In this document: in pieces, positions 6,980 to 34,093 of the stretch | Layout: every line of letters begins with the position of its first letter | How positions within the stretch are numbered: the stretch's first letter is position 1 | Assembly (NCBI GenBank): GCA_030530605.1 | Contig: JAUMUO010000001.1 | Location: 59,439-107,512, forward strand | DNA: 48,074 nucleotides | Source: Candidatus Saccharimonadota bacterium | GTDB taxonomy: Bacteria; Patescibacteriota; Saccharimonadia; Saccharimonadales; Saccharimonadaceae | Reading direction: 5' to 3' | Position numbers and translations under genes: made by a program | Notes under the pieces: model-generated | Seen by the model: only the letters and a program-made list of their open reading frames with translations | Database searches by the model: none | Told to the model about the DNA's origin: nothing

Positions 6980-6988
6980 TGCTATAAT
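6980..6988 (+). promoter_or_regulatory. Extended -10 promoter of the DGR accessory/RT operon
   Basis: TG-C-TATAAT directly after the preceding terminator. The ATG at 7024 is 35 nt downstream, behind a strong AGGAGG (7015-7020). Confidence 0.65.
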
Positions 6989-7023
6989 TTTTAAAAATTA
7001 ACCGGGTGGGCAAAAGGAGGAAA

Positions 7024-7824
7024 ATGCCCAACGTAATACAAGAAGAACAAAACAAACTGCGCTATTTTGAATCAAAAAGAACAGTACTCACCAGAGAAAA
7101 GAAAAACTATACACAGCTAATTTTTATGCGCGCGTCCGGGGAATGGCTAAAAGCCTTTAACCACTCCGCCGTATTCTTTGTCCAGAAGATTGCGCCCCAA
7201 ATCAAATCCGCCGCCAGACTTCAAGAAGACCGCGATTACGAGGTCAAGGCCGAAGTAGTAGTATCGATTCCAAATATCGAACGTTTAGTCCAAAAACTAA
7301 AACAAATTGACATAGAGCTAGTGGAGGAAAAGGACGGAATTTATACTTTCGCCCTAGGATACAGAATACCCGCAGACGAATACAATCTGATGCGCGAACA
7401 AAATCAAACCATCCTAGAACGTTCTGGCAAAATGGCTCTCCCTGTGGTCTTAATGCCAAATCTTCTGGAAGACATTAAGGAACTCTTTACAACCGTTTTC
7501 TGGGAGACCCGTAAGATGGAAGGGGCTATCAGAGAAATGATCGGCACCGATATGGTAAAAATCCCTCGGGATATGATCGCCAAATACACCACAATGGCCC
7601 GAAACACCGAAAGTGATGTCCACGCCTATCTAGAAGACGCCATGAATGATATTGAGACCATGAATGGAATCTATTTTGCTCTAGACACTCTAAGAATTAT
7701 AGATGAAAAAAAGATGTTTGAAATTGCCACTAAAATTGCTCGGGTCCGTAACCAAATCATTTACGAAATGAAAAAACAAGGCATGAAAGACGTCGATGCT
7801 AAGTATAAAGGAAAAGTTAAGTGA
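7024..7824 (+). CDS. DGR accessory protein, Avd-like helical domain with N-terminal extension
   Basis: 266 aa. The start at 7024 is set by AGGAGG 3 nt upstream; an in-frame GTG at 7006 is rejected. The C-terminal half (about 135-255) is a run of long amphipathic helices ending ALDTLRIIDEKKMFEIATK, consistent with the four-helix-bundle Avd family that binds the DGR reverse transcriptase and TR RNA. Classical Avd is only about 125 aa. Here about 130 extra residues precede it, with a mixed alpha/beta pattern (VVSIPNIERLVQKLKQIDIE ... GIYTFALGYRIPADEY) loosely like the MutS-type domain reported in some DGR accessory genes. Its stop overlaps the GTG of the RT (GTGA), so the two are translationally coupled. 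The role comes from position and fold impression, not a sequence match I can prove. Confidence 0.65.
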   Translation: MPNVIQEEQNKLRYFESKRTVLTREKKNYTQLIFMRASGEWLKAFNHSAVFFVQKIAPQIKSAARLQEDRDYEVKAEVVVSIPNIERLVQKLKQIDIELVEEKDGIYTFALGYRIPADEYNLMREQNQTILERSGKMALPVVLMPNLLEDIKELFTTVFWETRKMEGAIREMIGTDMVKIPRDMIAKYTTMARNTESDVHAYLEDAMNDIETMNGIYFALDTLRIIDEKKMFEIATKIARVRNQIIYEMKKQGMKDVDAKYKGKVK

Positions 7825-8966
7825 AAAAGGTTGAAAACCGCTGGTCTAAAAACCAACTAAAATACTGGCCAGAAAACAACGACGACCTCTTGTTTGCTCT
7901 CTATGAATCTTACAAAATGGCTAAAAGGGCAAAACTGCGAACAGACGACGAGAACAAATTTGAAATGTTCTTTATGGAAAATCTCATCCAACTTAGAGAT
8001 GATATTATAAACCGCAGATACCACCCCAGCCGCGGAAAAGCCTTTATCACGCATAATCCCGTCATTAGAGAGATTTTTGCGGCTCCATTTAGAGATAGGG
8101 TGGTCCACCATTTATTATATGCCATGAACGGTCTTTGGTGGGACAAGCACTATATCTATGATTCCTACTCTTGCCGAGATGGTAAGGGCACGCTCCTCGG
8201 CGTCCAACGCATCCAACACTTCATGGAAAAAGCCTCCAAAGCCGGCTCAAAAAAAGCCTATATCATCAAAGCCGACATCTCCGGGTATTTTATGAGCCTA
8301 AACCGTGACAGATTGTTTAAGGAAGTCCTGTGGGGGTTAGAGCGCCAATTCCCAAACAAAGGTTTCGAGTATGAACTTTGCCGCTATCTCTGGGCAGAAA
8401 TCATTTTCGACGACCCTGTCGCTGGAGTGCGGATGGCTGGCAGTAAAAAAGAGTGGGACCCTCTCCCAAATAACAAAAGTCTCTTTCACCAACCACCCGG
8501 CGTTGGCATAGTAATCGGCAATCTGACCTCTCAATCACTTTCTAACACCTATCTAAACCAATTGGACCGTTATATGAAGTACGAGCTTAAATTCAAATAT
8601 TACGGTCGCTATGTAGACGACTTCGTGGTCGTTGTACCAGAGGAAGAGCTTGAAGACGCTGTGAAAAAATTCAAACACGATATTCCTAAATTTCTAAAAA
8701 GCCTAGGATTAAAAATGCACCCTAGGAAGTTCTATGTCCAACCCATAGAACGCGGCCTACCATTTCTAGGTAGAGTTGTTCATCGCACCTATCTCACCGC
8801 CGGCAAACGCACCCGAGCACGATACTGGTCCGCCGCACAACAATATATGAACGGCTTAAAAGACGACGAATCTATTATTTCCTATCTTGGTATGACCAAA
8901 CATCTAAACGCCGAAAAGCTTAACAAACAAATCTTCGATTCCGTCGGCTGGGATTATAACTTCTAA
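7821..8966 (+). CDS. Diversity-generating retroelement reverse transcriptase
   Basis: 381 aa from a GTG that overlaps the accessory gene stop. It copies TR RNA into cDNA while misincorporating opposite adenines. RT motifs are in order: REIFAAPFRDRVVHHLL (81-99), the first catalytic Asp in KADISGYF (D152), IGNLTSQ (232-238), YVDD (264-267), GLKMHPRKF (296-304) and FLGRVV (315-320). The SQ in motif 4 (IGNLTSQ), where retroviral and group II RTs have QG..SP, is typical of DGR RTs. No maturase, endonuclease or RNase H domain is present. All catalytic residues are intact, and the TR and VR lie just downstream. Confidence 0.95.
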   Translation: MKKVENRWSKNQLKYWPENNDDLLFALYESYKMAKRAKLRTDDENKFEMFFMENLIQLRDDIINRRYHPSRGKAFITHNPVIREIFAAPFRDRVVHHLLYAMNGLWWDKHYIYDSYSCRDGKGTLLGVQRIQHFMEKASKAGSKKAYIIKADISGYFMSLNRDRLFKEVLWGLERQFPNKGFEYELCRYLWAEIIFDDPVAGVRMAGSKKEWDPLPNNKSLFHQPPGVGIVIGNLTSQSLSNTYLNQLDRYMKYELKFKYYGRYVDDFVVVVPEEELEDAVKKFKHDIPKFLKSLGLKMHPRKFYVQPIERGLPFLGRVVHRTYLTAGKRTRARYWSAAQQYMNGLKDDESIISYLGMTKHLNAEKLNKQIFDSVGWDYNF

Positions 8967-8971
8967 CCTGG

Positions 8972-9005
8972 GTGCTGGGTCCTCCTTAGAACGGGCAGCA
9001 CTTTT
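8972..9005 (+). terminator. Weak hairpin plus T-run after the RT gene
   Basis: GTGCTG (8972-8977) can pair with CAGCAC (8996-9001) around an 18-nt loop, followed by TTTT. The long loop makes this a weak terminator, but it lies between the RT stop and the TR on the correct strand. Confidence 0.4.
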
Positions 9006-9019
9006 AGGGGAGTATTCGC

Positions 9020-9279
9020 AACAAGGAAGGCTGGGGGCAAACTACGAAAGAAGCCCCTGCGCCAACGGACAGTAGCGCCACCGGCGCTACTGCGCTACGC
9101 AGCGAACGGCGTTCCCGTTGTTCTTGTTGTTGTTGTTCTGGGGGTTCACATTTGACGTATTGAAGTTCAGGTTGTAGCTGTTGTTGGTATTGTAAATAGA
9201 GGAGGACCAATAGTTCCCGTTCGTCCCGACGTTGTTCAACGTCGTACCATTGTAGTTGCCAGCGTAGGTAAAGCCAGCA
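9020..9279 (-). repeat. DGR template repeat (TR)
   Basis: 260 nt aligning without gaps to the VR at 10241-10500 (constant offset 1221). There are 241 identities and 19 differences. Every difference is an A in the coding-sense (minus-strand) TR: 12 of 17 AAC codons and 1 of 4 AAT codons are altered in the VR. Read in the VR frame the TR encodes 21 Asn residues between AGF and AVRC. The AAC bias is the classic design that lets adenine mutagenesis reach many amino acids without creating stop codons. The first 98 nt (9020-9117) contain no differences and act as the invariant 3' side with the initiation of mutagenic homology. The TR opposes the RT gene and matches the target orientation. Confidence 0.95.
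9071..9091. repeat. Inverted repeat within the TR
   Basis: AGTAGCGCC, a 3-nt loop and GGCGCTACT: a perfect 9-bp stem. The same hairpin is present in the VR at 10292-10312. Confidence 0.8.
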
Positions 9280-9532
9280 CTACGCAACACCTATACGCAC
9301 AGCTCCTGAGCCTCAGACGAATGTCAACCACACAGAGTCCTAACGAACAAAAACGTGGTAACGTTTTAGAGGCGACTGTTAATCGCAAATCACCCTGCCG
9401 GATAATCGCACTAGTCTGTATGGACCTTGCTTGCGCAAGAGCGCCTCCCCTTCCTTGTTTAAATAACCAGCCTATTCTAAAGATTATTCACTAAAATACT
9501 TCCTCGGACGGATGGCTACTCTCCTAAACGCT

Positions 9533-9562
9533 ATTATACTACTAGGGGGCCTTCAGGCACAA
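9533..9562 (-). promoter_or_regulatory. Candidate promoter for the TR RNA
   Basis: On the minus strand TTGTGC (9562-9557), an 18-nt spacer and TATAAT (9538-9533). Transcription from about 9526 would run through the TR and give an RNA of at least 500 nt. The -35 lies inside a hairpin element that is repeated near 10100. This is the best-placed promoter for the TR; the RNA start is inferred. Confidence 0.5.
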
Positions 9563-9571
9563 GGCCCGAAG
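9545..9571. repeat. 27-nt hairpin element, copy 1
   Basis: GGGGGCC followed by an arm that pairs with GCCCGAAG across a 5-nt loop. It matches 10088-10114 at 26 of 27 positions; an A in place of G at 9555 weakens this stem. The two copies lie 543 nt apart and flank the gene-free stretch between TR and VR. Confidence 0.8.
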
Positions 9572-9573
9572 TC

Positions 9574-9602
9574 TTGCCAAAATTAGACATATACGATATA
9601 AT
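9574..9602 (+). promoter_or_regulatory. Strong sigma-70-type promoter in the TR-VR interval
   Basis: TTGCCA (9574-9579), exactly 17 nt, TATAAT (9597-9602). It faces a terminator about 55 nt further on, and no open reading frame lies between them. Confidence 0.65.
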
Positions 9603-9608
9603 ACAAAT

Positions 9609-9681
9609 ATAAGGTAAGGAGCTTATCTAGAAAACTCTTTACCCGTTGGGATTGGTTAGTCGGTTATCCGACTAACTTTTT
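9609..9681 (+). ncRNA. Candidate small RNA (or attenuated leader) of about 73 nt
   Basis: The RNA is bounded by a consensus-like promoter (9574-9602) and an intrinsic terminator (9655-9681). It has no open reading frame of useful length. The 5' end is placed 7 nt after the -10 box. It matches no RNA family I recognise. It could be a stand-alone small RNA inside the retroelement or the regulated leader of a longer plus-strand RNA ending at 10153. Confidence 0.4.
9655..9681 (+). terminator. Rho-independent terminator inside the TR-VR interval
   Basis: GTTAGTCGG, TTAT loop, CCGACTAAC (perfect 9-bp stem), then TTTTT. The T-run is on the plus strand only. Confidence 0.8.
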
Positions 9682-10119
9682 ATATTAGGGGTCTTTTTCC
9701 TTTTTAAGGTAACCTTCAATACGACTTCTTGTATCTCCAACTTACTCCTTTCCAGGGGCCCTGGTTACGCTCTAGAACTGAACTGTTTTAATGAAGCCCC
9801 CTCGCAGGAAGTCTCCGCAAGGTCCCACCTCGCTTTGCTTAAGCTCCATTAAGACTCTAATACTCCCAACCTGCTTATTATTCTAAAAATGATATTACGA
9901 AAAACAAGACTTGATTTTTAGCGGTAAAAGAGGCAATACCACACTTTGCGGAAAAACACCAGCGCTAGCTTTTTGAACAGGGGCGAAACCGCTTAACAAT
10001 GCTTGCGGTTAACGCCTTCAAACCGCTTCTAATTTTTACAATTTCACAATGTTAATTTAACAAACTAACCTAGTCGTTATTATGCCGGGGGGCCTTCGGG
10101 CACAAGGCCCGAAGATCCC
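9682..10119. other. Gene-free, structured-looking interval between TR and VR
   Basis: I see no credible ORF here. The stretch contains several inverted repeats: the 9800-9840 region folds on the minus strand with an imperfect 8-bp stem, and AACCGC at 9987 pairs with GCGGTT at 10004. A second copy of the 27-nt hairpin element lies at 10088-10114. A minus-strand promoter-like pair (TTGTTT, 16 nt, TAGAAT) lies near 9882-9910. I looked for tmRNA (T-loop, CCA end), RNase P RNA (GAGGAAAGUC, ACAGAA) and SRP RNA signatures and found none. Its length and structure suggest one or more unassigned RNAs belonging to the element. Confidence 0.5.
10088..10114. repeat. 27-nt hairpin element, copy 2
   Basis: 26 of 27 positions match 9545-9571. 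In this copy CTTCGGGC and GCCCGAAG pair perfectly. It sits directly upstream of the 10120-10153 terminator. Confidence 0.8.
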
Positions 10120-10153
10120 GAAGCACCGTCTTTTGGACGGTGCTTCATTTTTT
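10120..10153 (+). terminator. Strong rho-independent terminator facing the target gene end
   Basis: GAAGCACCGTC, TTTTG loop, GACGGTGCTTC (perfect 11-bp stem), A, then six T on the plus strand. It cannot end the minus-strand target mRNA by the usual mechanism because no T-run follows on that strand. It therefore implies a plus-strand transcript coming from the TR-VR interval. Confidence 0.8.
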
Positions 10154-10240
10154 CAGACAAGCCATAAGGTTCTATCTACAGCTCAACATCAACACATCTC
10201 TCTTGGTTCTACCAAACTTCTTTTCTCGCAAGAGGACAAG

Positions 10241-10500
10241 AACAAGGAAGGCTGGGGGCAAACTACGAAAGAAGCCCCTGCGCCAACGGACAGTAGCGCC
10301 ACCGGCGCTACTGCGCTACGCAGCGAACGGCGTTCCCGAGGTACTTGCTGCTGTAGTTCTGGGGGAACACATTTGACGTATTGAAGCGCAGGTTGTAGCT
10401 GCTGTTGGTATCGTAAATAGAGGAGGACCAATAGAGCCCGCTCGTCCCGACGTTGCCCAACGTCGTACCATTGTAGCGGCCAGCGTAGGTAAAGCCAGCA
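10241..10500 (-). repeat. DGR variable repeat (VR)
   Basis: Aligned to the TR at offset 1221. It covers the last 64 codons of the target gene plus 67 nt past the stop. Substitutions fall between 10339 and 10478, changing 13 of 21 template Asn codons to Arg, Gly, Ser (x4), Leu (x2), Asp, Arg, Phe and Tyr (x2). Residues 670-716 of the target are affected. The 98 nt from 10241 to 10338 are identical to the TR, as expected for the non-mutated side. All changes are consistent with adenine-specific mutagenesis; no insertion, deletion or non-adenine change is present. Confidence 0.95.
10292..10312. repeat. Hairpin/cruciform overlapping the target stop codon
   Basis: AGTAGCGCC, 3-nt loop, GGCGCTACT. 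The TAG stop (10308-10310) lies within one arm. Hairpins just beyond the variable region are known cis elements for DGR retrohoming in Bordetella phage. Here the hairpin overlaps the stop rather than lying after it. Confidence 0.75.
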
Positions 10501-12485
10501 GCGCTATTAGTGTCTAGCTCTGGGTTTAGGGAACCGGAATCGCCTTTAATCATGTTCTGGCGAATAGTGCCGTCTGAAGTGTAATACTGATATGTTTGGG
10601 TTGGTTGTCCACTCCAAGAAGCGCTGGAATTATACGCTCGGGCAAGATTAGCAAATTCAGCATTTGCCGCTACCACCGAAGTACCGCTATCTGATACTTT
10701 TGGTAGTCTCCAACCCTTTGGACAAATGTCCATTGAGGATGAGCCAGAGGTTTTACCATCGTTATAGTAGGAGAAGCCGAGGGTGGCGGTATAGTAACTA
10801 TAGTAGGCAGTGGCTTCTGGTGTTGGGTTACCTGTTTGGTTGTTTGTATCGCCTGCGGCTCTATAACCTATCTGGATATAGTTAGGGTAGCTTGTACTGA
10901 AATCTACTGCTGCCGAGGCTGAAGCTACAGCCAAATTATTGAAGTTCCCTGTAGAAGTATAGCGTGCGTTCTTTGGCGTGATGTAGTAGGACTTGCTATC
11001 GCTACTTGGAATGTTGGTATTAGCATTGGTTAGAGCCTTACCTTCAGTTACAAGGTCGGTGGCGGTGAGGGTGAGGTTATTAATCATCCAACACTTGCCG
11101 TCTGGGAGTTTCTTGACTTTGTATTCGTGGTTATCGCGATTATCCACCAGAGTAGTAATCTTCTGAGACTCAAGCGTGCTACAGTCGAAGTCTTGCATAT
11201 ACTGTGTGCCGATCTCCCACACCCCATAGAACTTCACCGTTCCTCCAGAGGTCGTGGAAACACTCTGTCCCGCCGCCGCTGCTGCGCTAACAATTGCTGA
11301 GGTCGAGAAGGACCCTCCACTCACCACATCATTTCCGGAAATCTGTGCTACCGAAGCCGCATCGCTGGCAAACGCCCAGCCGACCAGATTATAAGTTTCA
11401 CTTGAGAAACCGTTTTCTGGGATAGTCGCATTGCTAGAAAGTAATTGCTGTGTCGCCGACATACTACCAGAAACTGGCAACGCCTCTGTTGGAGCATTTG
11501 CTACATAAGAGAAGGTATATTGGTTATCCCAAACCGCGTAAAGCATCACACCAGAAGTAGCAGGTGTTTGGCCAGCCGCCTCTGCAGCTGCTATCAAACT
11601 ATCCACCGAAATACCACTTTCACCTGCATTGAGGGTCTTACCACCTACTGTCGCCGGGTTAGAAGCTCCTGCGGTTAAAGCCCATCCCCTAATACCTTGA
11701 CCTTCTTTAACAAAGCCATTTTCTGGCATCGTGATAGTACTACCAGCCATAATAGTGCGTGGTGCCATAGAACCACTGCCACCATTACCGTTGAAGTTCA
11801 AATTATACCTTGCGCCATCTGCATTTGCGACTGCCGAAAAGACCACATTATTAGAATATGTACCTGCCGGAAGTGCCGAAGTGAGCACCGCTCCAAATTT
11901 AATCGCATAGGTGTCATAGGTGCTAGACGCACAAGCAACTGGGATTGGATAATCTAAATCTGCACAATAGGCCGCATCATCTGAAGATTTATTGTAAATC
12001 TCTGTACCGCTACCGCCCGCTGCGCCAATTGGGTACCAGTGCGTGGTATCACCCGGTTTCTGGAAACCCCAAGTATTCGCCGTAAGCACCGTTGCACCAG
12101 AAGTAATTGCGTCGATTTCCGTAGTTACCGAGGAAAGACTGTGGGTCATACCAGTAGAAGTGTCTTGCGTTAGGACGGAGAGAGTATATCCTTTAAGAAC
12201 ATTCGTGGTCACTACTACGTTAACCGTGCCGGAAATCGAAGTACCAGAAGGAGAAGGAGAAATCGTCGTGTGGCCTTCATTATCCTCAAGCTGTAAAGCA
12301 CTCTTATCTACAGCAAGCTTCACAAATTCCTTAACGTTTACGCCTACTTCTGAGCCTGCCAACGCCTCTGTCTGCGCATTACTGCGTGCCACAGGGAATA
12401 ACATTGCCGACAAAACCAGCATTAAGCTCGCAAAACTCACGAGGCTGACTATTCTTTTTACCATCATTCTTGAGGTTTTTTTCAT
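10308..12485 (-). CDS. DGR target: secreted FISUMP/C-type-lectin-like surface protein
   Basis: 725 aa. The start at 12485 is preceded by TAGGAGAG; a further upstream ATG at 12536 lacks a site and adds no signal-like sequence. Order: signal peptide (about 1-38), a beta-rich domain (about 39-225) ending LPAGTYSNNVVFSAVAN, two InlB/Listeria-Bacteroides-type repeats (each with PENGF, GWA and YAVW or YGVW), then a FISUMP-type domain from about 430. That domain has the signatures LPDGKCWMINNL, CPKGWRLP, YWSSSIY and GNAVRCVAQ at the very end. The last ~55 residues are the variable lectin-like face. No LPxTG or C-terminal anchor is seen because the protein ends at the variable domain, so attachment is probably through the N-terminal part. 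Its ligand is unknown. Confidence 0.9.
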   Translation of the reverse strand: MKKTSRMMVKRIVSLVSFASLMLVLSAMLFPVARSNAQTEALAGSEVGVNVKEFVKLAVDKSALQLEDNEGHTTISPSPSGTSISGTVNVVVTTNVLKGYTLSVLTQDTSTGMTHSLSSVTTEIDAITSGATVLTANTWGFQKPGDTTHWYPIGAAGGSGTEIYNKSSDDAAYCADLDYPIPVACASSTYDTYAIKFGAVLTSALPAGTYSNNVVFSAVANADGARYNLNFNGNGGSGSMAPRTIMAGSTITMPENGFVKEGQGIRGWALTAGASNPATVGGKTLNAGESGISVDSLIAAAEAAGQTPATSGVMLYAVWDNQYTFSYVANAPTEALPVSGSMSATQQLLSSNATIPENGFSSETYNLVGWAFASDAASVAQISGNDVVSGGSFSTSAIVSAAAAAGQSVSTTSGGTVKFYGVWEIGTQYMQDFDCSTLESQKITTLVDNRDNHEYKVKKLPDGKCWMINNLTLTATDLVTEGKALTNANTNIPSSDSKSYYITPKNARYTSTGNFNNLAVASASAAVDFSTSYPNYIQIGYRAAGDTNNQTGNPTPEATAYYSYYTATLGFSYYNDGKTSGSSSMDICPKGWRLPKVSDSGTSVVAANAEFANLARAYNSSASWSGQPTQTYQYYTSDGTIRQNMIKGDSGSLNPELDTNSAAGFTYAGRYNGTTLGNVGTSGLYWSSSIYDTNSSYNLRFNTSNVFPQNYSSKYLGNAVRCVAQ

Positions 12486-12562
12486 TTTCTCTCCTAGATT
12501 ATTAATTCCTTCCCCTCTTATCAGAGGGAAGACCACGACTAAATGACCTTATTAATAACTCC

Positions 12563-12591
12563 ATTATAATGTATATGCTTTTAATAATCAA
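12563..12591 (-). promoter_or_regulatory. Promoter of the DGR target gene
   Basis: On the minus strand TTGATT (12591-12586), exactly 17 nt, TATAAT (12568-12563). The leader of roughly 70 nt contains the TAGGAGAG ribosome-binding site. This is one of the best sigma-70-like promoters in the window, so the target is probably well expressed. Confidence 0.75.
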
Positions 12592-16693: not shown

Positions 16694-19660
16694 ATGAAAC
16701 TGCGAGAAAAGATAGCACAGAAACGGTTTTTGGGGCCATTATTGGGCTTGATTTTCGCATTTTTCTTATGCTTTGTCAATAGTTCGTCCACCTCTGCTAA
16801 ACCTCTCAGTGTCCCCATCCACACCACCCCCATCACCGTTCTCGCCGACCCTATTGAAGGTATTGAAACCCCTGAAGAAGAAACTGAAACTACTGAGGAA
16901 AATAGCGAGGAAAAATCCGAAGAAGAACCCGAGACTTGTTACGACCAGGTCAAAGGTATCGGCTGGCTAGTCTGTCCTACCTCTGGCGTTCTCGCCAAAG
17001 CCGTCGACTCTATCTACAAAGTCATTAGCGACCTTCTCGTCGTTCAACCTATGACGACCGACTCTGATTCGCCTGTCTTCATTGTCTGGCAATACGTTCG
17101 CGACCTCACCAACATTGTCTTTATTATCCTCATTCTCGTCGTCATTTACTCCCACCTCACCGGAGTTGGCTTTGACAACTACAATATCAAGAAAATTCTA
17201 CCAAAACTCATCATCACTGCCATTTTAATCAACTTAAGTTATCTCATCTGCTCCGCTTTAATCGACACATCCAACATCGCCGGCGCTTCGCTCCGCGGTT
17301 TCTTTGAAAACATTGAGTCTCAAATCAACGCTAGTGGTGATGCTATGATTACTTGGGAAGCCTTCGCCGCTATGCTCGGCGGTGGCGGTGCTGTTGCTGG
17401 CCTGGCCGTTTCTGCTGCCGGCGGCATCGGCGCTATTCTACCGATGTTTATCCTTTCTCTACTTTCTGCCTTTATCTCTATCCTCGTCGGTCTTGCCACT
17501 ATTGCTATGCGTCAAGCAGTTGTCGCTCTTCTTGTGATGGTTGCCCCGCTTGCCTTCGTCTGTTATATGCTTCCAAACACTAATAAATGGTTCACCAAGT
17601 GGAAAGATATTCTAACCACTATGCTAATTTTCTTCCCAATGTTCTCCGCTCTCTTTGGCGCTTCCCATCTTGCTGGTTGGGCCATTATTGCTAAAGCCCA
17701 GCAAGACGGTTCGCTCTTTATGACCATCCTCGGTATGGCCGTTCAGGTTGTACCGTTCTTCCTCGCCATCCCGATGATGAAGATGTCCGGCTCCGTACTT
17801 GGCAAAGTCAGCGGCGCGCTCGACAACCTCGGCAAAAACACCACCGGCCGTCTCCGCCCGGTCGCCGAAGATTTCCGCGACACCGCCCGCGCCAAAAAAC
17901 TCGACGAAGCCTCTCGTTCTAGAAACTATGCTTCCGGGGCCTACTGGCGCGCTCGCTTCGACCGTAATAAATACCTCCGCGCTGAAGATCGTGCTGAACA
18001 CGAAGAAAATCGCAAAATAACTTATTCTGCTTATTCCAACGCTCGTTCTACTGGCCGCACTCTAAAGCGCTGGGAAAACGGTCGCGCTGTCTATAAAACT
18101 AAAAAGGATAAGGATGGTAATGAAATCGACAACGTCAAAGTCACCAGCGCAATGCGTGATAACTACCTAAATCGCGAGCTCAAACTCGCCGCCGAAGCTG
18201 ATGACCTCAAGACCGCCAACGCTATGAGTAATGTCAATGCCTATTTACGCTCTACCGAAGCTAAAGAAGATAAGATTTTGAAGGCTCTCGCCGATAACCA
18301 AGCCCAGAACTATCTTGACCTTCGCACCCAACAATCTGCCAAAGCCCGAAACGACCGCTCTGACCAAAGATTCTACTTCGAGCAAGTCCAAAAGGCCTCT
18401 AAAATTGATAAGAGCGGCAATATCGTCAACCGTAGTCTTTACAACCAACTCGTAAGGACTGGTGCCGGTGCTGACGCGCACGACTCAGATGAAACTATTC
18501 GTCAAAATGCCCTTACTACCGTGACCGCCGACGCTTATGAAGCCTTCGAAAAGCAGCGTAAAGAAACCACTTCTAAATATGCTACCTACTTCGATAAGCA
18601 GATTACCAAAAACGTGCTTCACGGCTACGATGGCGCGCTTCATAATAAAAACATCGAGGCCGTTGTCGCTGCTCAGAACACCCTTGCCAAACGTGGCGAC
18701 TATGACAAAATCGAAGAGTATCTCGCCCATTTCATGGATCATACTAAGAATAAGAAGGGGACCATCAACTTTGAAAACCAAGACGGCTATGTTGAGCTTG
18801 GTTCTGACTTTGCCAACGTCTTAGCAAGTGACTTGCTACAATATAAAGACGCCGCTCCAATCCTCGGTCGTCTCGGTAAATTCATCAACATGGAAACTTG
18901 GCGCAACAGTAATACTACTGAAGACGGCAAACCTTTGCGCAGTAGAAGCTATATTACTATGGAAGAATACAACCAAGGTGGCTACGATTATGTTGAGGCC
19001 GGCCAACCACAGACCTATAATATTAAGACCTCTTCCGGCGCGCTTCAAAAAGGTACTAGTATTGGCAATATCGACCGCACCGGCTTCGGCGCCATGCAAC
19101 AACATATTGATCGTTACCATCATGGCGATGAAGAATACTTCACTAGTTACGTCAGCAACTTCCTGCCAGAAATTATTTCCAATGTTCCTAAGTTTGAGAC
19201 TGACGGCGAACAAATTATGAACACTCTCGGCTTTATGACCGGTATGAAATGGGATGAGAAACACGCCACCTGGAAACAAGGCGACGGCCAAATTCATATG
19301 GCTGTCATTCGTAAATATATGGATGGTCAAACCGACAAAGATATGAATGTCTTTAAGACCAACGCCTACCAGGCCATCTGTTCCGCTATTGCTATTGATA
19401 TGGGCGAATGCGCCTATAAGACTATTGACGGTTCCGGTAGAATGTTTAATGCCGACGGCAGCTCTAACCTAGAACTAGACAAAAATGGCAACCCACAATT
19501 CAATCCTTCCGAGAATGTGCTACAAGTCTTCCGCGGTATGGTCCGCAAAGACGTTATTAATACTCTCCAGAACAACATCAATCACGGTACCAACGGCGGT
19601 ATGAAGCCAACTATTATGCGCGCTCTTGGTCTTACTATCCCCGATTCAACTCAAAAATAA
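16694..19660 (+). CDS. VirB6/TrbL-like type IV secretion membrane protein with long soluble tail
   Basis: 988 aa. A signal peptide (about 1-36) is followed by a Glu/Thr-rich segment (55-80) and a cysteine pair (C82 and C94). A polytopic membrane region of about 270 aa follows (about 135-390; Gly/Ala-rich helices such as GGGGAVAGLAVSAAGGIGA). From about 400 there is a hydrophilic, charged tail of nearly 600 residues. VirB6/TrbL proteins form the inner-membrane channel of type IV secretion systems. Signal peptide, multi-helix core and its place between pilin, PrgI and VirB4 genes support this. The very long cytoplasmic tail is unusual and I recognise no enzyme in it. Confidence 0.75.
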   Translation: MKLREKIAQKRFLGPLLGLIFAFFLCFVNSSSTSAKPLSVPIHTTPITVLADPIEGIETPEEETETTEENSEEKSEEEPETCYDQVKGIGWLVCPTSGVLAKAVDSIYKVISDLLVVQPMTTDSDSPVFIVWQYVRDLTNIVFIILILVVIYSHLTGVGFDNYNIKKILPKLIITAILINLSYLICSALIDTSNIAGASLRGFFENIESQINASGDAMITWEAFAAMLGGGGAVAGLAVSAAGGIGAILPMFILSLLSAFISILVGLATIAMRQAVVALLVMVAPLAFVCYMLPNTNKWFTKWKDILTTMLIFFPMFSALFGASHLAGWAIIAKAQQDGSLFMTILGMAVQVVPFFLAIPMMKMSGSVLGKVSGALDNLGKNTTGRLRPVAEDFRDTARAKKLDEASRSRNYASGAYWRARFDRNKYLRAEDRAEHEENRKITYSAYSNARSTGRTLKRWENGRAVYKTKKDKDGNEIDNVKVTSAMRDNYLNRELKLAAEADDLKTANAMSNVNAYLRSTEAKEDKILKALADNQAQNYLDLRTQQSAKARNDRSDQRFYFEQVQKASKIDKSGNIVNRSLYNQLVRTGAGADAHDSDETIRQNALTTVTADAYEAFEKQRKETTSKYATYFDKQITKNVLHGYDGALHNKNIEAVVAAQNTLAKRGDYDKIEEYLAHFMDHTKNKKGTINFENQDGYVELGSDFANVLASDLLQYKDAAPILGRLGKFINMETWRNSNTTEDGKPLRSRSYITMEEYNQGGYDYVEAGQPQTYNIKTSSGALQKGTSIGNIDRTGFGAMQQHIDRYHHGDEEYFTSYVSNFLPEIISNVPKFETDGEQIMNTLGFMTGMKWDEKHATWKQGDGQIHMAVIRKYMDGQTDKDMNVFKTNAYQAICSAIAIDMGECAYKTIDGSGRMFNADGSSNLELDKNGNPQFNPSENVLQVFRGMVRKDVINTLQNNINHGTNGGMKPTIMRALGLTIPDSTQK

Positions 19661-19769
19661 TATTATACTGCCATTTACAAACTAGTAGTTTTATGATAAA
19701 ATATAAATAGTTATAGATTCATTAGAGTAGTTCTTTCACATATACATTCTAGTTCAAGGAGGTGGTGAA

Positions 19770-20474
19770 ATGGATGTAATTTTCAAAATTGCCGGTTGGA
19801 TGATACTTATTCTCATAGGACTGGTCGGCTTAATGGTCCTAATAAATAATTGGGAAGATATTATACTGTTCTTCTCAAATCTTTCATCAACATCTACCAA
19901 GGAAGAATCTGGCGAACAAGATAAAGCTGAGCAATTCAAAGAAAAAGTCTTCGATATCTTAAAATATAAAGGGCAATATGACCCCAAACTACAACTTAAG
20001 GTATACAGCGATAGCAACATCACTATCTATGAAGACAAAAGAATTACTTGGAAACACAAATCTGGTAATCCCAGGGAAGATTGCGTAGAATACATCGACA
20101 GGCTTTACTCTCTTTGCCATGACAGAGAATACGAAATGTCCCAAAGCATTCAAGTGAAGGCTCGTAAAATTCTCGCAAGCAATGAAGAGTTTCAATCTGG
20201 TAATTTAAGGCTCTATTCTGGCGAAAGATCTTCTAGTATTCGAATATCTGTAGCTGGCCAGCTAGTTTTCTGCCAAGACAATATAGATAACCATATATCC
20301 ACTTACAGGCCAGGGAAATGGGAGCAGGAACTCGATCGTATTCTCGAAAAACGCCTTGACGAAAGCGAGAAACAAATGCCAGAGTTATTTATGGCCGAAA
20401 AAGAGCGAAAGCAAAGAGAAGCAGAAGAGGAAATCCGCAAATTTTCTCCAATTGACGACAGTGCTTACTTCTAG
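19770..20474 (+). CDS. Membrane-anchored hypothetical protein
   Basis: 234 aa, not recognised. One N-terminal membrane helix (about 5-27) is followed by a mixed soluble domain containing two cysteines (DCVEYIDRLYSLC) and a charged C-terminal helix (MAEKERKQREAEEEIRKF). AAGGAGGTGG stands before the ATG, a strong canonical ribosome-binding site. A clear terminator follows at 20490-20517. Base composition is more AT-rich and less C-ending in codons than the flanking secretion genes, so it may be an insertion into the locus. Confidence 0.75.
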   Translation: MDVIFKIAGWMILILIGLVGLMVLINNWEDIILFFSNLSSTSTKEESGEQDKAEQFKEKVFDILKYKGQYDPKLQLKVYSDSNITIYEDKRITWKHKSGNPREDCVEYIDRLYSLCHDREYEMSQSIQVKARKILASNEEFQSGNLRLYSGERSSSIRISVAGQLVFCQDNIDNHISTYRPGKWEQELDRILEKRLDESEKQMPELFMAEKERKQREAEEEIRKFSPIDDSAYF

Positions 20475-20489
20475 AATCTATAACTACCC

Positions 20490-20517
20490 GCGCCGCTAAC
20501 AAAGCGGCGCATTTTTT
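20490..20517 (+). terminator. Rho-independent terminator after the 19770 gene
   Basis: GCGCCGCT / AGCGGCGC perfect 8-bp stem, 5-nt loop, followed by A and six T. Confidence 0.9.
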
Positions 20518-20540
20518 ATCTCTAAAACTCTTAAGTATGT

Positions 20541-20546
20541 TATAAT
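20541..20546 (+). promoter_or_regulatory. Extended -10 promoter, leaderless start of the PrgI-VirB4 operon
   Basis: TG-T-TATAAT with the ATG of the PrgI gene 6 nt downstream. Confidence 0.65.
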
Positions 20547-20552
20547 TACTAT

Positions 20553-21602
20553 ATGGCACAGTACAAGGTCCCACAAGATGTTGAGGCCGACGATAAACTG
20601 CTTGGGCCGTTTACCTTTCGCCAGTTCGTCTACCTAATGATAATGGGCGGGATGATCGCCCTTGCTGTTGCTTTGTTTCAAATTTTTCCGCTTCTTGCTA
20701 TTCTTCCGCTTCCAATCGCAATTTTCTTCGCCGTTTTAGCCCTCCCTCTTAAAAAAGACCAGCCGATGGAAACTTATCTCGCCGCCATCGTCTCTTATCA
20801 CTTAAAACCCCGGAATCGTTTTTGGAATCCTGGCCAGCGCGAATCTACTATTACTATTACTGCTCCAAAAGTTGTTGAACAACCCCGCACTCGTAACATC
20901 ACCGGCGAAGAGGCTAGCACGCGTCTCTCTTTTCTTGCCAATGTTATTGATACCGAAGGGAACAGCCTTCGAAATTCTGCCCCGGCTCAGCCAATGCAGC
21001 CAGCTTTTTACACCGCTAATATCTCTGCTCCTGATGTTCTCGAGCCGCCGCATCCAGACCAACTCACTCAAATCATGGCCAACAACCAAAGTTCTCAACG
21101 CACCGAAATCATTAATCAAATGCGCGCTTCTTTTGCCGCACAAAATAATCCTGGTACCGCCGGCTACATCCCTCAGCAACCAGGACAACCAGCCCAACAA
21201 CCAGCTCCTCAGCAACCGGTCCAACAACCGGCTCCCCAGCCAGTAGTCCCTCAACCAGTCCAAACACTTACTCCGGTCCAACCATATATTACTACTCCAG
21301 CCCCTGCGCCCGCTCCGGTTGCTAACACAGTTCAGGATATGCTTCAAACTCCAGCCCCTGCGCCAGAGCCGCCAAAAGACGAGCCCGAAATCGCTCTACC
21401 AACTCCGGCTGAACTTGCCGCTATTGAGCCTCTCAAATCTGCCGTTGTCATTACTCCAGACACTGCTGCGATGAAACGCGCCGCCGAAAACAAGGCCCGC
21501 CTCACCGCCCTCGCTAAAGACACCGAACTTTCTGTCGCTACTATCGCTAAAGAGGCTAATCGTATTAACAAAGATGACGAAGTATATATATCATTAAGGT
21601 AA
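20553..21602 (+). CDS. PrgI family protein (VirB3-like) with Pro/Gln-rich tail
   Basis: 349 aa. The N-terminal 95 residues match the PrgI family: MAQYKVPQDVEADDKLLGPF, then two adjacent membrane helices (about 27-65) and the short amphipathic end ETYLAAIVSYHLKPRNRFW. PrgI sits at the VirB3 position beside VirB4 in many Gram-positive and CPR secretion loci. The remaining 250 residues are an extended, presumably cytoplasmic Pro/Gln/Ala-rich linker (about 190-290) and a helical end, far longer than the usual PrgI of about 120 aa. It heads an operon with the TraC-like and VirB4 genes. Confidence 0.85.
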   Translation: MAQYKVPQDVEADDKLLGPFTFRQFVYLMIMGGMIALAVALFQIFPLLAILPLPIAIFFAVLALPLKKDQPMETYLAAIVSYHLKPRNRFWNPGQRESTITITAPKVVEQPRTRNITGEEASTRLSFLANVIDTEGNSLRNSAPAQPMQPAFYTANISAPDVLEPPHPDQLTQIMANNQSSQRTEIINQMRASFAAQNNPGTAGYIPQQPGQPAQQPAPQQPVQQPAPQPVVPQPVQTLTPVQPYITTPAPAPAPVANTVQDMLQTPAPAPEPPKDEPEIALPTPAELAAIEPLKSAVVITPDTAAMKRAAENKARLTALAKDTELSVATIAKEANRINKDDEVYISLR

Positions 21603-21611
21603 GGAGGAAAG

Positions 21612-22448
21612 ATGAACCCAAATAATCAACAACCACAACCGGCTCCCCAGCCAATGCCACCTCAAGGCCAAATGCCTCAGGGTCAACAGCCTCAAGGCCA
21701 GATGCCACCACAAATGGCACCACAAATGCCAAATCCAGCTATGATGCAGGCCAACCCCGACCTTCCTATTTCCACTCAGTCCACCCTTCTTATCTCCGAG
21801 CTCAGAGACAGCCTCGTCATTATGAAAGACGGCTCCTTCCGTGCGGTCATCGCCTGCCAGTCCATCAACTACGACCTCATGTCCGAAATGGAACGCGACG
21901 GCGTCGAATTCTCCTACCAACAGTTCATCAACTCCTTAAACTTCACCACTCAAATTTTGGTTCGTTCTCAACGCGTTGATATCGGTCCTTACATTGAACG
22001 CCTTGCTAAAATTCGTCGCGAAAATGATAATATGCTTCTCGGTGTCCTGATGGACGACTACATTGATTTCATTGACGCTCTTTCTCAAGAGGCCAACATT
22101 ATGGATAAATCCTTCTTCATTGTCATCCCTTACTACCCAGACCCAAATGCTGAAAAAGTTCTCCAACAAACCAAGAATTTCTTCAAATCTTTCAGCCGCG
22201 GCAAAGAGCCCCAAGTCACCAAAATCGACCGCACTACTTACGATGCCGCCGTTAAAGAAATTAACAACCGCGTCGAATCCGTAATGAACGGCCTTTACAA
22301 TATCGGCATCCACTCCGTCCGTCTCAACACTCGCGAGCTTGCCAGCCTCTATTACAACTTCAATAACCCCGACACCGCCGTCCGCGAGCCGCTCGTTGAT
22401 TTTAATCAAGTTGCCACAACCTACGTAAAGAAAGGAGATAGAAAATGA
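21612..22448 (+). CDS. TraC-like protein, separated N-terminal module of VirB4
   Basis: 278 aa. A Pro/Gln/Met-rich leader (1-45, repeats of QGQMP type) is followed by a domain of about 220 aa. Its pattern is that of the VirB4/TraC N-terminal region (ISELRDSLVIMKDGSFRAVI ... QFINSLNFTTQILVRSQRVD ... RELASLYYNFNNPDTA). It has no Walker motifs. AAGGAGG lies before the ATG, and the stop overlaps the VirB4 start by 4 nt (ATGA). The coupling and domain content suggest one VirB4 functional unit split into two polypeptides. The Pro/Gln-rich leader echoes the tail of the preceding PrgI. Confidence 0.75.
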   Translation: MNPNNQQPQPAPQPMPPQGQMPQGQQPQGQMPPQMAPQMPNPAMMQANPDLPISTQSTLLISELRDSLVIMKDGSFRAVIACQSINYDLMSEMERDGVEFSYQQFINSLNFTTQILVRSQRVDIGPYIERLAKIRRENDNMLLGVLMDDYIDFIDALSQEANIMDKSFFIVIPYYPDPNAEKVLQQTKNFFKSFSRGKEPQVTKIDRTTYDAAVKEINNRVESVMNGLYNIGIHSVRLNTRELASLYYNFNNPDTAVREPLVDFNQVATTYVKKGDRK

Positions 22449-24268
22449 GTAGAAAACAAAAGAAGGCGCGCTTAAAGGCCGCCGAAATGCAAAATGCTGA
22501 AGAACTAGAAATCCAGCGCGCGTTTGAGCAGGGCATCACCACTCTCCGTGACCTCATCTCCCCAAGTTCTATTGAAATTCACTCTAGCTATTTCCGTCTT
22601 GGCACTAAATATGGTCGCACTCTTTATGTCTATGGTTACCCTCGTTCTCTTTATACCGGTTGGCTTTCTCCTATTATTAATATCGATGAAGTACTTGATA
22701 TCTCCATGTATATTTATCCGGTTGACACCGCCGTGGTGATGAAAAACCTTGAGAAAAAGGTAACCCAGCTTGAAGCCTCTATTGCGGTCAACTCCGAAAA
22801 AGGTCGTATCCGCGACCCAGAACTTGAAGCTGCCATCGGCGACGCTGAGGAACTCCGTGATGACCTCCAGGTCGGCCGTGAAAAATTCTTCCGTTTTGGT
22901 CTTTATGTTACTCTCTGGGCCGACTCTCTCGACGAGCTAAACTTTGTCCAACGCAAAATTGAAACCATTTTTGGTCAGCAAATGATTTTCTCTAAGGTTG
23001 CTTCTTCTCAACAAGAGCAGGGCATGAACTCTTGTCTCCCACAGTGTACCGACCAACTTCAGATTCGTCGCAACATGAACACCGGCGCTATTTCCACTTC
23101 CTTCCCGTTCACTTCCGCCGACCTCACCCAGGAAAAGGGTATATTATATGGTATCAACATGCATAACACTGGTCTAGTTATCTTTGACCGCTTTACTCTT
23201 GAAAACGCTAATATGGTCGTCTTCGCGAAATCTGGTGCTGGTAAATCTTTTGCCGTTAAGCTTGAAGCCCTCCGCTCTATGATGGTCGGCTCTGAGATTT
23301 TAATTATCGACCCAGAAAATGAGTACCAGCGTCTTTGCGACGCCGTCGGTGGTTCTTATATTCGTCTCAGTCTTAACTCCGACGTCCGTATCAACCCCTT
23401 CGATTTACCAAAAGTTGTTGATTCTGAAGACGCAAACGACGCTCTGCGTGCCAACCTCGTCACCCTTCACGGCCTTTTCCGCCTAATGCTTGGTGGTTCT
23501 GGCATCGGCCCGAACGGCCAAATCATCCCGGCTCTCACCCCTGCCGAAGAAGCCGACCTAGACCAGGCCTTAATTGATACTTATGCTCGCGCCGGTATCA
23601 CTTCGGATCCTTTGACTCACCAATCCACCCCGCCAACTATTCTAAATCTCTACGATACTTTGCTTCACATGGGTGGCTCCGGCCCAGCTCTCGCCCAGCG
23701 TCTCAAGAAATATACCACCGGTACTTTTGCGGGTATCTTCTCTCAACAATCCAACATTGATATTAATAATCAAATGGTCGTCTTTAACATTCGCGACCTT
23801 GAGGACCAACTCCGGCCAGTTGCGATGTATATCGTCCTTTCTCACATTTGGAACATCATCCGCGCTAATCAAAAGCGCCGCATCCTCATCGTTGATGAGG
23901 CCTGGCAATTAATGGATCACGAAGATTCCGCGAACTTCCTGTTTAGTCTTGCTAAGCGCGCTAGAAAGTATTACCTCGGTCTTACCACGGTTACGCAGGA
24001 CGTCGAAGACTTCATGGCTTCCAAAATGGGCCGCGCCATTGTCGCAAACTCCTCTATGCAGCTACTTTTGAAACAAAACCCATCCGCCGTGGACGTCCTT
24101 TCCGACGTCTTCAAGCTCACCGAGCAAGAGAAAAAGCTTCTTGCCAACTTCCCAGTTGGAAACGGCCTCTTCTTCGCCGGCCAAAATCACGTCCACATCC
24201 AGGTCATCGCTTCCGACACCGAAACTTCTCTCATCACAACGAACCCTCAAGATAAAGCTCCCCGTTAG
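22445..24268 (+). CDS. virB4: VirB4-type secretion ATPase
   Basis: 607 aa. It powers substrate transfer or pilus assembly at the inner membrane. The N-terminal 250 residues carry the second part of the VirB4 middle region. Walker A (KSGAGKSFAVK) is at about 261-271, and Walker B (RRILIVDEAWQLM) at about 478. The late motif LTTVTQDVEDFM and the Gln/Arg region (SSMQLLLKQ) typical of VirB4/TraC follow. No relaxase or VirD4 coupling protein is visible in the window, so a role in conjugation is not indicated here. It overlaps the TraC-like gene by 4 nt. Confidence 0.92.
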   Translation: MSRKQKKARLKAAEMQNAEELEIQRAFEQGITTLRDLISPSSIEIHSSYFRLGTKYGRTLYVYGYPRSLYTGWLSPIINIDEVLDISMYIYPVDTAVVMKNLEKKVTQLEASIAVNSEKGRIRDPELEAAIGDAEELRDDLQVGREKFFRFGLYVTLWADSLDELNFVQRKIETIFGQQMIFSKVASSQQEQGMNSCLPQCTDQLQIRRNMNTGAISTSFPFTSADLTQEKGILYGINMHNTGLVIFDRFTLENANMVVFAKSGAGKSFAVKLEALRSMMVGSEILIIDPENEYQRLCDAVGGSYIRLSLNSDVRINPFDLPKVVDSEDANDALRANLVTLHGLFRLMLGGSGIGPNGQIIPALTPAEEADLDQALIDTYARAGITSDPLTHQSTPPTILNLYDTLLHMGGSGPALAQRLKKYTTGTFAGIFSQQSNIDINNQMVVFNIRDLEDQLRPVAMYIVLSHIWNIIRANQKRRILIVDEAWQLMDHEDSANFLFSLAKRARKYYLGLTTVTQDVEDFMASKMGRAIVANSSMQLLLKQNPSAVDVLSDVFKLTEQEKKLLANFPVGNGLFFAGQNHVHIQVIASDTETSLITTNPQDKAPR

Positions 24269-24295
24269 ACTCTAGACTTCTCCCCTTAAAAATGT

Positions 24296-24301
24296 TATAA
24301 T
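24296..24301 (+). promoter_or_regulatory. Extended -10 promoter, leaderless start at 24310
   Basis: TG-T-TATAAT with the ATG 8 nt downstream, 28 nt after the VirB4 stop. Confidence 0.65.
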
Positions 24302-24309
24302 TACACCGT

Positions 24310-26991: not shown

Positions 26992-28274
26992 AAAAGTTTC
27001 TTGTTAGCTTTCTAGCAGCCCTAGCAATCATCACCCCTGTCTCCGCCGTTTCCGACGCCGTCGTCGATAAGATGAACTCGATTGAGAGTTATTATTATAA
27101 CCCCGAAGGCAAACTAAAATGTATTCCGAACTATCAAGGTGACGTCACCGTCGCTGGCGGCACCGCCGAAGAAAAAATTTGGTCCGGCCTTACCTCCTTC
27201 CTCACTTCCGAGCAAGCCGCTGGTATTATGGGTAACTTTGTCAGCGAATCTGGCCTAAACCCCGTCCGCCATGAAACTAGTTTCCTAAACAAAAATCCTA
27301 ATTTCGACCTTTCCTCGAGTCCAGAAGTTGCCCACGGTATCGGCCTTGCCCAATGGTCTTTCTCTCGTCGTATCAGTCTTTATAATTTCATCAAATCCCG
27401 CGCTCCTGAACTTATCAAATACTTTGACGATGGCCAAACTTATGGCCGCCTTTCCGGCGCCGAGTTTGTCGAAAAAGCTGGTGAAGAAGTCGCAAACCAA
27501 CTTATTTCTCTTGAAATTGAATACCTAAGAGATGAAATTAATAATACCTATCCAGCCATCAAAAACGCTAACACCGTTGCCTCCGCCACCGAAACTTTCT
27601 TAAGAGATTATGAGCGTCCTAAAAATCCAGACCTAATCCATCACCCGGACCGTCTGCCTCAAGCCGAAGGTATCTATAGTCGTCTTTCCGGAAAAACTAT
27701 TGAGGTTCATGCCACCACTTCTGGCGATCCAGATTGTACTAACGCTTCCGATATCACCACTTCCGGCGACGCCGGCTCGCTCCAATCGCTCGTAATGGAA
27801 TATGCTTGGGATACTTATCACTCCGCCGTTTTCACCGACCGAAAACCAGCCTACGCCGAAGCCGTCACTCGACGCCTCGCGTCAGGGAAATATGTCGGCG
27901 GTAGCGTAAACGGTGTCGCCGGTATCGACTGCGGTGGCTTTGTCACCACTCTTATGCAAGAATCTGGCTTCGCCCCAGATTACAACTCCGGAAATGGCAA
28001 CACCGCTATTCAGGAAACTTGGGTCCGCACCAACGGCTGGCAACTTCTAAATGCTAACCCCGGCACCCCGGTCGACACTTCCGTCCTTCAACCCGGCGAC
28101 GTCGCCTTCACGACCGGCCACACTTTTGTTTATGTTGGCAACATCCCCGGCTTCCACTCCAATATCGCCTCCGCTTCCTACGGCAACGAATCTGGCCGCG
28201 CACCTATGGCCGGCCACGAATCTCTCACAAAAAACGGCAAAGGTGAAACCGTCCGCTGGTACCGCAAACCATAA
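26985..28274 (+). CDS. Secreted cell-wall hydrolase: phage-tail-lysozyme-like plus NlpC/P60-like domain
   Basis: 429 aa. Signal peptide (about 1-21). A lysozyme-like domain of the phage tail lysozyme type follows (about 65-230): SEQAAGIMGNFVSESGLNP with the likely catalytic Glu, then GIGLAQWSFSRR. The C-terminal NlpC/P60-like cysteine peptidase domain (about 265-429) has GIDCGGFVTTLM (nucleophile Cys) and GDVAFTTGHTFVYVG (His). Such two-domain enzymes act as VirB1-type hydrolases that open peptidoglycan for the secretion apparatus; they could equally act on a partner cell. GGGGGTG precedes the ATG, which overlaps the preceding gene. Confidence 0.85.
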   Translation: MLKKFLVSFLAALAIITPVSAVSDAVVDKMNSIESYYYNPEGKLKCIPNYQGDVTVAGGTAEEKIWSGLTSFLTSEQAAGIMGNFVSESGLNPVRHETSFLNKNPNFDLSSSPEVAHGIGLAQWSFSRRISLYNFIKSRAPELIKYFDDGQTYGRLSGAEFVEKAGEEVANQLISLEIEYLRDEINNTYPAIKNANTVASATETFLRDYERPKNPDLIHHPDRLPQAEGIYSRLSGKTIEVHATTSGDPDCTNASDITTSGDAGSLQSLVMEYAWDTYHSAVFTDRKPAYAEAVTRRLASGKYVGGSVNGVAGIDCGGFVTTLMQESGFAPDYNSGNGNTAIQETWVRTNGWQLLNANPGTPVDTSVLQPGDVAFTTGHTFVYVGNIPGFHSNIASASYGNESGRAPMAGHESLTKNGKGETVRWYRKP

Positions 28275-28283
28275 GAAGTATGC

Positions 28284-28289
28284 TATAAT
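28284..28289 (+). promoter_or_regulatory. Extended -10 promoter, leaderless start at 28296
   Basis: TG-C-TATAAT with the ATG 6 nt downstream. Confidence 0.65.
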
Positions 28290-28295
28290 TAATAT

Positions 28296-33836: not shown

Positions 33837-34093
33837 CAGAATTCTCCTTCGTATTACCTTCTTTATTAAACTTTAAAGTAATTATACCAAACATCCAAAA
33901 ACTTTTCCACAAGAAATCTCAAGATTTTTTCATTATATAATATGTATTTTTAGAATAGGGAACAACTTTTCCACAGAAATCACCTTCTATCTAATAAAGT
34001 GTGGAAAACATCTTGGATTTAGTGGAAAACTGTGCTATAATATACCAAGAATTTGCTAAATAATAAAATACTAGAACATAAGGAAACAAGATT
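33837..34093. other. dnaA-rpmH intergenic region with DnaA-box-like sites
   Basis: 257 nt without a gene. TTTTCCACA at 33903-33911 and 33967-33975, and TGTGGAAAA at 34000-34008, plus a partial copy at 34021. The centre is AT-rich. At the right end an extended -10 (TG-C-TATAAT, 34036-34041) drives rpmH. This may be a second part of the origin or DnaA-dependent control of dnaA and rpmH. Confidence 0.6.

Follow-up and report, generated by a model that had tools for sequence, protein, structure and literature searches.

How is the template RNA of a diversity-generating retroelement (DGR) produced and recognised when its template repeat (TR) lies antisense to the reverse transcriptase (RT)? This question is raised by a DGR in a 678-kb Saccharibacterium genome, of which a stretch of 48,074 nt on contig C2, hereafter the window, was analyzed. 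Within its region 6980-12591, the RT and an accessory gene are encoded on the plus strand, and the TR, the variable repeat (VR) and the target gene on the minus strand. The locus was compared with about 70 related DGR copies from its lineage, Candidatus Saccharibacteria, with the relatives that could be named coming mostly from goat, sheep and deer gut. Single-sequence scans of genome and viral contig collections with the RT returned zero relatives and an alignment-based RT query succeeded; a TR/VR pair, selected at 70% or more, was recognisable in 70 lineage loci. Taken together, the results make it probable that the window carries an active cellular DGR with an autonomous template RNA that is closed by a helix. 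A reading of the window made from its letters alone (the sequence-only reading) had described the DGR itself; two further DGRs in the genome, a VR copy in trans, an RNA scaffold 5' of TR and the closing helix are added here.

Template repeat, variable repeat and target gene

The only long direct repeats in the region 6980-12591 are TR (9020-9279, minus strand), the 3' end of which lies 54 nt beyond the RT stop, and VR (10241-10500, minus strand), which ends in the same sequence, resembling an initiation of mutagenic homing (IMH) element, and extends 67 nt beyond the target stop. Their ungapped alignment over 260 nt contains 19 differences, all 19 at adenines of the coding-sense TR (A>G 9, A>T 6, A>C 4), which reproduces the alignment given in the sequence-only reading. 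Given that 66 of the 260 TR bases are adenines, the chance of this outcome by composition is (66/260)^19, about 5e-12. Across the 70 lineage loci, 1481 of 1597 TR/VR differences are likewise at TR adenines. The adenine content of TR is 12% in the last 35 nt as compared to 30% elsewhere, and due to this low content the end required for homing would be copied without mutation. A 10-bp GC-rich hairpin, CAGTAGCGCC-GGT-GGCGCTACTG (9070-9092, minus strand; read from the window sequence), surrounds the target-stop position and is common to TR and VR; a hairpin of the BPP-1 type with a GRNA loop 3' of VR was not found in the window, where the hairpin loop is GGT and shared by both repeats.

The target gene (10308-12485, minus strand) codes for an exported protein that has a FISUMP domain and carries VR at its C terminus; the domain scored 46.1 bits, above the cut-off of 41.65 bits (NCBIfam TIGR02145), and a hydrophobic segment was read from the sequence at the N terminus. 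Its ATG start at 12485 is preceded by the ribosome-binding site AGGAGAG. The 19 rewritten VR positions span 10339-10478 (minus strand) and alter 13 Asn codons and no other codon, the rewritten residues being 670-716 with this start or 687-733 if translation begins at the alternative GTG upstream at 12536. The frames of the accessory gene, RT and target are open, and TR and VR are present, in accordance with the earlier statement that all parts of the DGR are intact. Two further statements held in part. That all changes lie in Asn codons, at 13 residues between 670 and 716, is true of the window VR with the ATG start and fails as a rule of the system, since a VR copy on contig C8, described below, changed Thr and other codons. 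The target had also been called secreted and lectin-like: sequence comparison supports the FISUMP domain, whereas the predicted structure of the domain, a poor model (pLDDT 71), matched no C-type-lectin fold.

A structured RNA 5' of the template repeat

A scan of the window against Rfam at the gathering threshold gave a tRNA-Ser as the sole match, hence the RNA element found 5' of TR is not a curated Rfam family. The TR flanks are nearly unalignable by sequence, and because homology of the 5' flank to relatives is almost absent, covariation was used in place of similarity; folding revealed a recurring pattern. In the window, it is a predicted three-way junction at 9368-9448 (minus strand) with the helices P1 (GGAGGCG/CGCCTCT), P2 (CTTGC/GCAAG) and P3, which scored 59.3 bits with the covariance model R2. 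This model was built from 14 loci, comprises a P1 of 7 bp, a P2 hairpin, a P3 hairpin often with a YNMG-like tetraloop, and AAGU before the P1 3' strand, and was used for all scans, 69 short TR regions being searched with all filters off. A covariance model of P1 and P2 only (R1) was dropped as too rigid in length, and a naive helix finder run on the 5' flanks was dropped as well, having produced wrong helices in many loci.

Matches to R2 at E<5 were obtained in 43 of the 69 TR regions. Among matching loci outside the model, the top match preceded TR on its own strand, at 0-209 nt, in 29 out of 29 cases, and the strand and position of these held-out matches are free of model-fitting bias. The 678-kb genome contains exactly three matches, one per DGR, and a scan of 393 genomes of the class detected matches in eight (E<=0.001), all belonging to the same genus; in one newly found genome, G337, the match adjoins a DGR RT (49% identity). 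In a model-fitted alignment of 35 loci, the covariation score was 0.603, as compared to 0.226 for shuffled and 0.08-0.18 for slid partners; P1 was paired at 96.7%, with all 7 of its 7 pairs changed on both sides, and P2 at 92.9%. These comparisons demonstrate that the predicted RNA structure 5' of TR is conserved and covarying.

Predicted pairing of the RNA ends

Complementarity exists between the approximately 10 nt right before P1, termed a1, and the TR 3' end, termed a2. In the window, a1 is AACAAGGAAGG (9449-9459, minus strand), directly 5' of P1, and a2 is CCTTCCTTGTT (9020-9030, minus strand), that is the last 11 nt of TR and the exact, IMH-like end of the TR/VR homology. The corresponding helices of the two further DGRs of the genome, on contigs C4 and C5, are formed by AGGAAGATG with CATCTTCCT and by TGTGGAAAGG with CCTTTCCACG, respectively. 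In an unconstrained fold of the whole window RNA, a1:a2 pairs with a probability of 0.88-1.0, and the C4 and C5 RNAs agree.

The pairing was assessed by permutation tests in which a1 and a2 partners are shuffled between loci, the statistics ignoring shared ancestry. For 43 loci, the mean helix score was 19.02; permuted partners gave 12.70 (standard deviation, sd, 0.41), and none of 5000 permutations exceeded 14.27. Within this set a1 is found 0-9 nt before P1, most a2 strands stop 0 to +2 nt from where the TR/VR homology ends, and 41 different a1 sequences occur. When 66 loci were chosen regardless of the scaffold, the score was 20.24 versus 17.10 (sd 0.30); control windows in the TR interior and in the 3' flank of the 66 loci showed no pairing signal, nor did the TR end when combined with the 3' flank as a spacer-like partner (16.59 versus 16.25, sd 0.29). 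At the level of sequence, these scores demonstrate a closing helix a1:a2.

Similar pairing was seen outside the lineage. Among 26 non-redundant canonical DGR clusters from Bacteroidetes, Patescibacteria and phage, the TR end and the 5' flank scored 20.08 versus 17.53 (sd 0.56; 0/3000 permutations), and control windows including the 3' flank were null. Examples are TTTAAATCC:GGATTTGAA in L303, AATCAATCC:GGATTGATT in L307 and TTGAATCTG:CAGATTCAA in the Pseudomonas-phage-like L368. In L127 and L131, which belong to families outside the genus and carry TR on the RT strand, the order a1-P1-P2-P3-TR-a2 can be made out by eye within the 255-262 nt that separate RT from TR; for same-strand Saccharibacteria (n=5) the permutation result was not significant.

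Candidate promoter and arrangement of the proposed template RNA gene

The sequence-only reading had argued that the TR RNA needs its own promoter, and a candidate was found in the hexamer TATAAT at 9533-9538 (minus strand), from which the RNA would be expected to start near 9526 and to extend over about 500 nt to the TR end. Its spacing is conserved among relatives: an exact TATAAT occurs 60-105 nt 5' of P1 at 23 of 33 sites on the TR strand, as compared to 5 of 24 on the opposite strand. A simple promoter scan did not report 9533-9538 because a good -35 box is absent.

Further signals were noticed in the vicinity. A palindrome of 38 nt, CTTCGGGCC..GGCCCGAAG, is present in two copies (84%), one at 9534-9571, directly preceding the candidate TR promoter, and one at 10077-10114, and each is followed by TATAAT or CATAAT on the minus strand; they may possibly represent an operator or a duplicated promoter. 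On the plus strand, 9574-9680 contains a promoter-like TTGCCA-17-TATAAT and then an intrinsic terminator (9654-9677), a possible small RNA gene of about 70 nt divergent from the TR RNA, and a second plus-strand terminator is present at 10120-10146. In L237 (G337), TR 3' ends and 5' elements seem to be tandemly duplicated downstream of RT at about 870-1650, where perhaps two template RNA genes serve one RT.

With respect to gene order, TR is antisense to RT and just beyond the RT stop in 67 of 70 lineage loci, with a median gap of 64 nt and a distance of about 5-100 nt in most of them; the other 3 carry TR on the RT strand. Among the 67 antisense loci, 55 carry the target on the RT strand and upstream of the accessory gene; in 12 of the 70, including the window, the target is convergent, coming toward RT from beyond TR. 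In the loci of related RTs from Bacteroidetes, Moranbacteria and viral contigs, TR immediately precedes RT and shares its strand. The convergent layout of the window had been regarded as unusual; this is correct for the target and incorrect for TR, since the antisense TR is a fixed trait of the lineage and the convergent target is its minority feature.

Reverse transcriptase and accessory protein

The RT gene (7821-8966, plus strand) encodes 381 aa with the motifs YVDD and IGNLTSQ and exceeded the Pfam RVT_1 cut-off; comparison with the PHROG reverse transcriptase gave 3e-75. Among solved structures, the closest to it is the BPP-1 DGR RT (8ub7 and others; E 1e-24), with the group II intron RT far behind (7e-5), and this ranking of PDB matches places the enzyme in the DGR group. 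In the loci L135-L138 (G041, G014, G013, G058), RT was matched in two pieces within one open frame, which suggests an insertion between residues ~178 and ~184.

The accessory gene (7006-7824, plus strand) codes for 272 aa, and homologues adjoin RT in essentially all lineage loci. The protein matched no Pfam or NCBIfam family. An AlphaFold2 model (pLDDT 94), computed from an alignment of 66 homologues at the same position in related loci, predicts an N-terminal alpha/beta domain and a C-terminal helical bundle of about 107 aa, which matches Avd of BPP-1, both as the free protein (4dwl) and as chains of the DGR ribonucleoprotein (8ub7), with template-modelling scores by target length of 0.71-0.81, and also the S23 family protein 2rld. 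Judged by this model, it is an Avd-like protein plus an extra N-terminal domain.

Further DGRs and recent rewriting

The genome harbors three complete DGRs (C2, that of the window, C4 and C5), each with RT, accessory gene and its own TR and VR; several DGRs per genome of the Candidate Phyla Radiation (CPR) are already on record (PMC10907252). All TR/VR differences are at TR adenines (19/19 in C2, 24/24 in C4 and 18/18 in C5), with zero non-adenine differences in 715 nt over the three.

A fourth VR copy was detected mid-protein on contig C8, at residues about 650-714 of a protein of 1192 aa (L068, 8060-11635) with several FISUMP-like domains, the first of which holds this copy of the window TR; no DGR lies beside the gene. 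Compared with the window TR, it carries changes at 21 of 192 positions; all of these are adenines, their pattern is independent of that in the window VR, and adenines outside Asn codons, including those of Thr codons, were altered as well. Over 578 nt right up to VR, no difference separates the window target from the C8 gene; within VR they differ at 27 of 192 positions, 27/27 being TR adenines, for which the chance is (62/192)^27, about 5e-14, with 62 adenines among the 192 bases. Therefore, at least one of the two copies was rewritten after a domain exchange, too recently for other changes to accumulate. The window DGR was thus recently active, as the sequence-only reading had supposed, and the C2/C8 pair provides independent evidence of VR diversification, standing in for population reads within the limits of one genome.

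Proposed mechanism and alternative explanations

Following these observations, we propose that a dedicated promoter would yield an RNA with the order 5' leader, a1, three-way-junction scaffold, linker, TR and a2, in which pairing of a1 with a2 would hold the start of reverse transcription beside the scaffold. RT and the Avd-like accessory protein would bind this template RNA via the 5' scaffold, and copying would begin at or near a2; the first approximately 35 nt copied, A-poor and IMH-like, would remain unchanged. The remaining TR adenines would be randomised, giving variable codons, and the cDNA would replace VR in the C-terminal domain of the target, which presumably binds a ligand. The Saccharibacteria RNA might be seen as a permuted form of that of BPP-1, with the scaffold shifted 5' and the ends joined by a helix, in a retron-like plan.

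Since RT and the Avd-like part of the accessory protein are homologous to those of BPP-1, where the spacer that follows TR on its 3' side brings in RT-Avd and serves to prime cDNA synthesis (PMC12875486), the window might instead hold an ordinary BPP-1-like DGR with its scaffold 3' of TR, on the strand opposite the RT 3' end; the 5' element would then be an unrelated leader or attenuator of TR transcription. This seems improbable to us, as the TR end showed no sign of pairing with the 3' flank in the 66 lineage loci or in the canonical clusters, the gap between TR and the RT stop is only about 5-100 nt in most loci, and a mere attenuator would need no covarying pairing with the exact TR 3' end at a distance of 400-500 nt. 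The short inverted repeats that bound the scaffold-TR segment, together with the TR on the RT strand in three relatives, could also be read as DNA repeats of an invertible or mobile scaffold-TR cassette, which would explain the orientation opposite to RT. However, the orientation is constant in 67 of 70 loci, the repeats are only about 7-12 bp long and unrelated between loci, and the segment between a1 and a2 contains a strand-specific covarying RNA structure, so that we give this explanation very little credence. Decay of the element, with its parts intact by chance and its activity lost, is hard to reconcile with three intact RT-accessory pairs, with TR/VR pairs free of non-adenine differences and with adenine-only differences beside a long identical stretch in the C2/C8 targets; we consider it highly unlikely.

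Several observations weigh against the helix-closed template RNA model itself. A scaffold match at E<5 was missing in 26 of 69 loci, P3 is only 62-67% paired and weakly supported, and the pair counts from the model-fitted 35-locus alignment lean toward structure. The permutations ignore shared ancestry, and swaps between relatives should make the tests conservative. Folding backs a1:a2 weakly in L131 (about 0.57) and not in L127. For BPP-1, the best 5' closing partner was no better than chance, and this element functions with a 3' spacer, so not every DGR needs a 5' scaffold. Finally, stop, IMH-like end and a2 are all missing from the C8 copy despite its adenine-only changes, so that either the copy is archived or homing can dispense with the IMH-like/a2 end. 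Because the IMH-like end is absent, the C8 VR is perhaps archived and not a live target; a copy that gene conversion took from the window target in an earlier state is no less likely than a second target that is currently homed.

Other features of the window

DnaA boxes (TTTTCCACA) clustered at 33818-34010 between dnaA and rpmH mark oriC. The DGR target is about 22 kb away and directed away from oriC, and target orientation away from oriC favours DGR editing in E. coli (PMC12875486). Adjoining oriC, a gene at 34392-36743 (plus strand) encodes an exported repeat protein of 783 aa, the C terminus of which (..AVRCLLRTK) resembles DGR target ends; it had no TR match and is a possible non-diversified relative of the target. 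A conjugation or type IV secretion system-like cluster at 16694-29660 includes a TraG/VirB4 ATPase (22445-24268) and two phage-tail-lysozyme cell-wall hydrolases of a kind seen in CPR genomes.

Implications and comparison with known systems

Detailed knowledge of DGR RNA is limited to BPP-1, and surveys detect DGRs by RT and TR/VR alone. With scaffold, promoter and closing helix, template RNAs would become findable without a nearby VR, and the closing helix, by marking the TR end, would predict the start of cDNA synthesis. A template RNA that is an independent gene would explain why TR can be on either strand and on either side of RT, and its recognition as template becomes testable by simple compensatory mutations. 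Moreover, natural records of DGR rewriting are rare, and the C2/C8 target pair provides one from an uncultured bacterium of ultra-small size.

The system resembles the DGR of Bordetella phage BPP-1 (brt, avd, TR, mtd) in its homologous RT, Avd-like fold, adenine-specific transfer from TR to VR, VR at the C terminus of the target and unchanged 3' end of TR and VR. However, BPP-1 has the order target-avd-TR-spacer-RT on one strand, whereas TR in the window lineage is antisense to and 3' of RT; a structured BPP-1-type spacer between TR and RT was not found in the window, where TR, on the opposite strand, ends at a distance of 54 nt from the RT stop. The scaffold of BPP-1 is 3' of TR (PMC12875486), that of Saccharibacteria is 5' of TR and closed by a helix onto the TR end. 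Furthermore, the Saccharibacteria accessory protein has the extra N-terminal domain relative to BPP-1 Avd, and IMH and IMH* of BPP-1 differ whereas the TR and VR ends in the window are identical. In RNA of the BPP-1 type, an adenosine within the RNA itself primes the cDNA.

An RT orientation opposite to TR and VR is known from the inverted-RT cassette G5 of Yan et al. (2019), which the BPP-1 order outnumbers more than 20-fold (PMC6642488). G5 is a category of that survey, whereas the Saccharibacteria show a lineage-wide fixed order with TR 3' of RT and a target usually 5' of and co-oriented with RT. CPR DGRs were assigned to RT clade 2 by Roux et al. (2021) (PMC8144416), and the present system resembles DGRs of CPR/Patescibacteria in being cellular, CPR-enriched, present several times per genome and directed at a target without a recognised enzymatic domain.

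In the searchable literature, which does not include several key DGR papers, no description of DGR RNA structure outside BPP-1 or of a closing helix in CPR DGRs was found, and the novelty of the 5' scaffold and the closing helix is provisional. Whether the closure between the 5' leader strand and the TR 3' end is a general and so far unrecognised feature of DGR RNAs, with a retron-like closed plan and with BPP-1 as a special case, seems to us an evenly balanced proposition, its generality being based on one permutation test without phylogenetic correction. Retron RNA has the same plan, namely a structured 5' RNA, a 3' template and an a1:a2 helix joining the 5' and 3' ends; retrons further have an RT group of their own and msDNA with a branching guanosine. 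The likeness is one of plan: an RT closest to DGR RT, adenine mutagenesis and the presence of TR/VR and a target distinguish the Saccharibacteria element from a retron.

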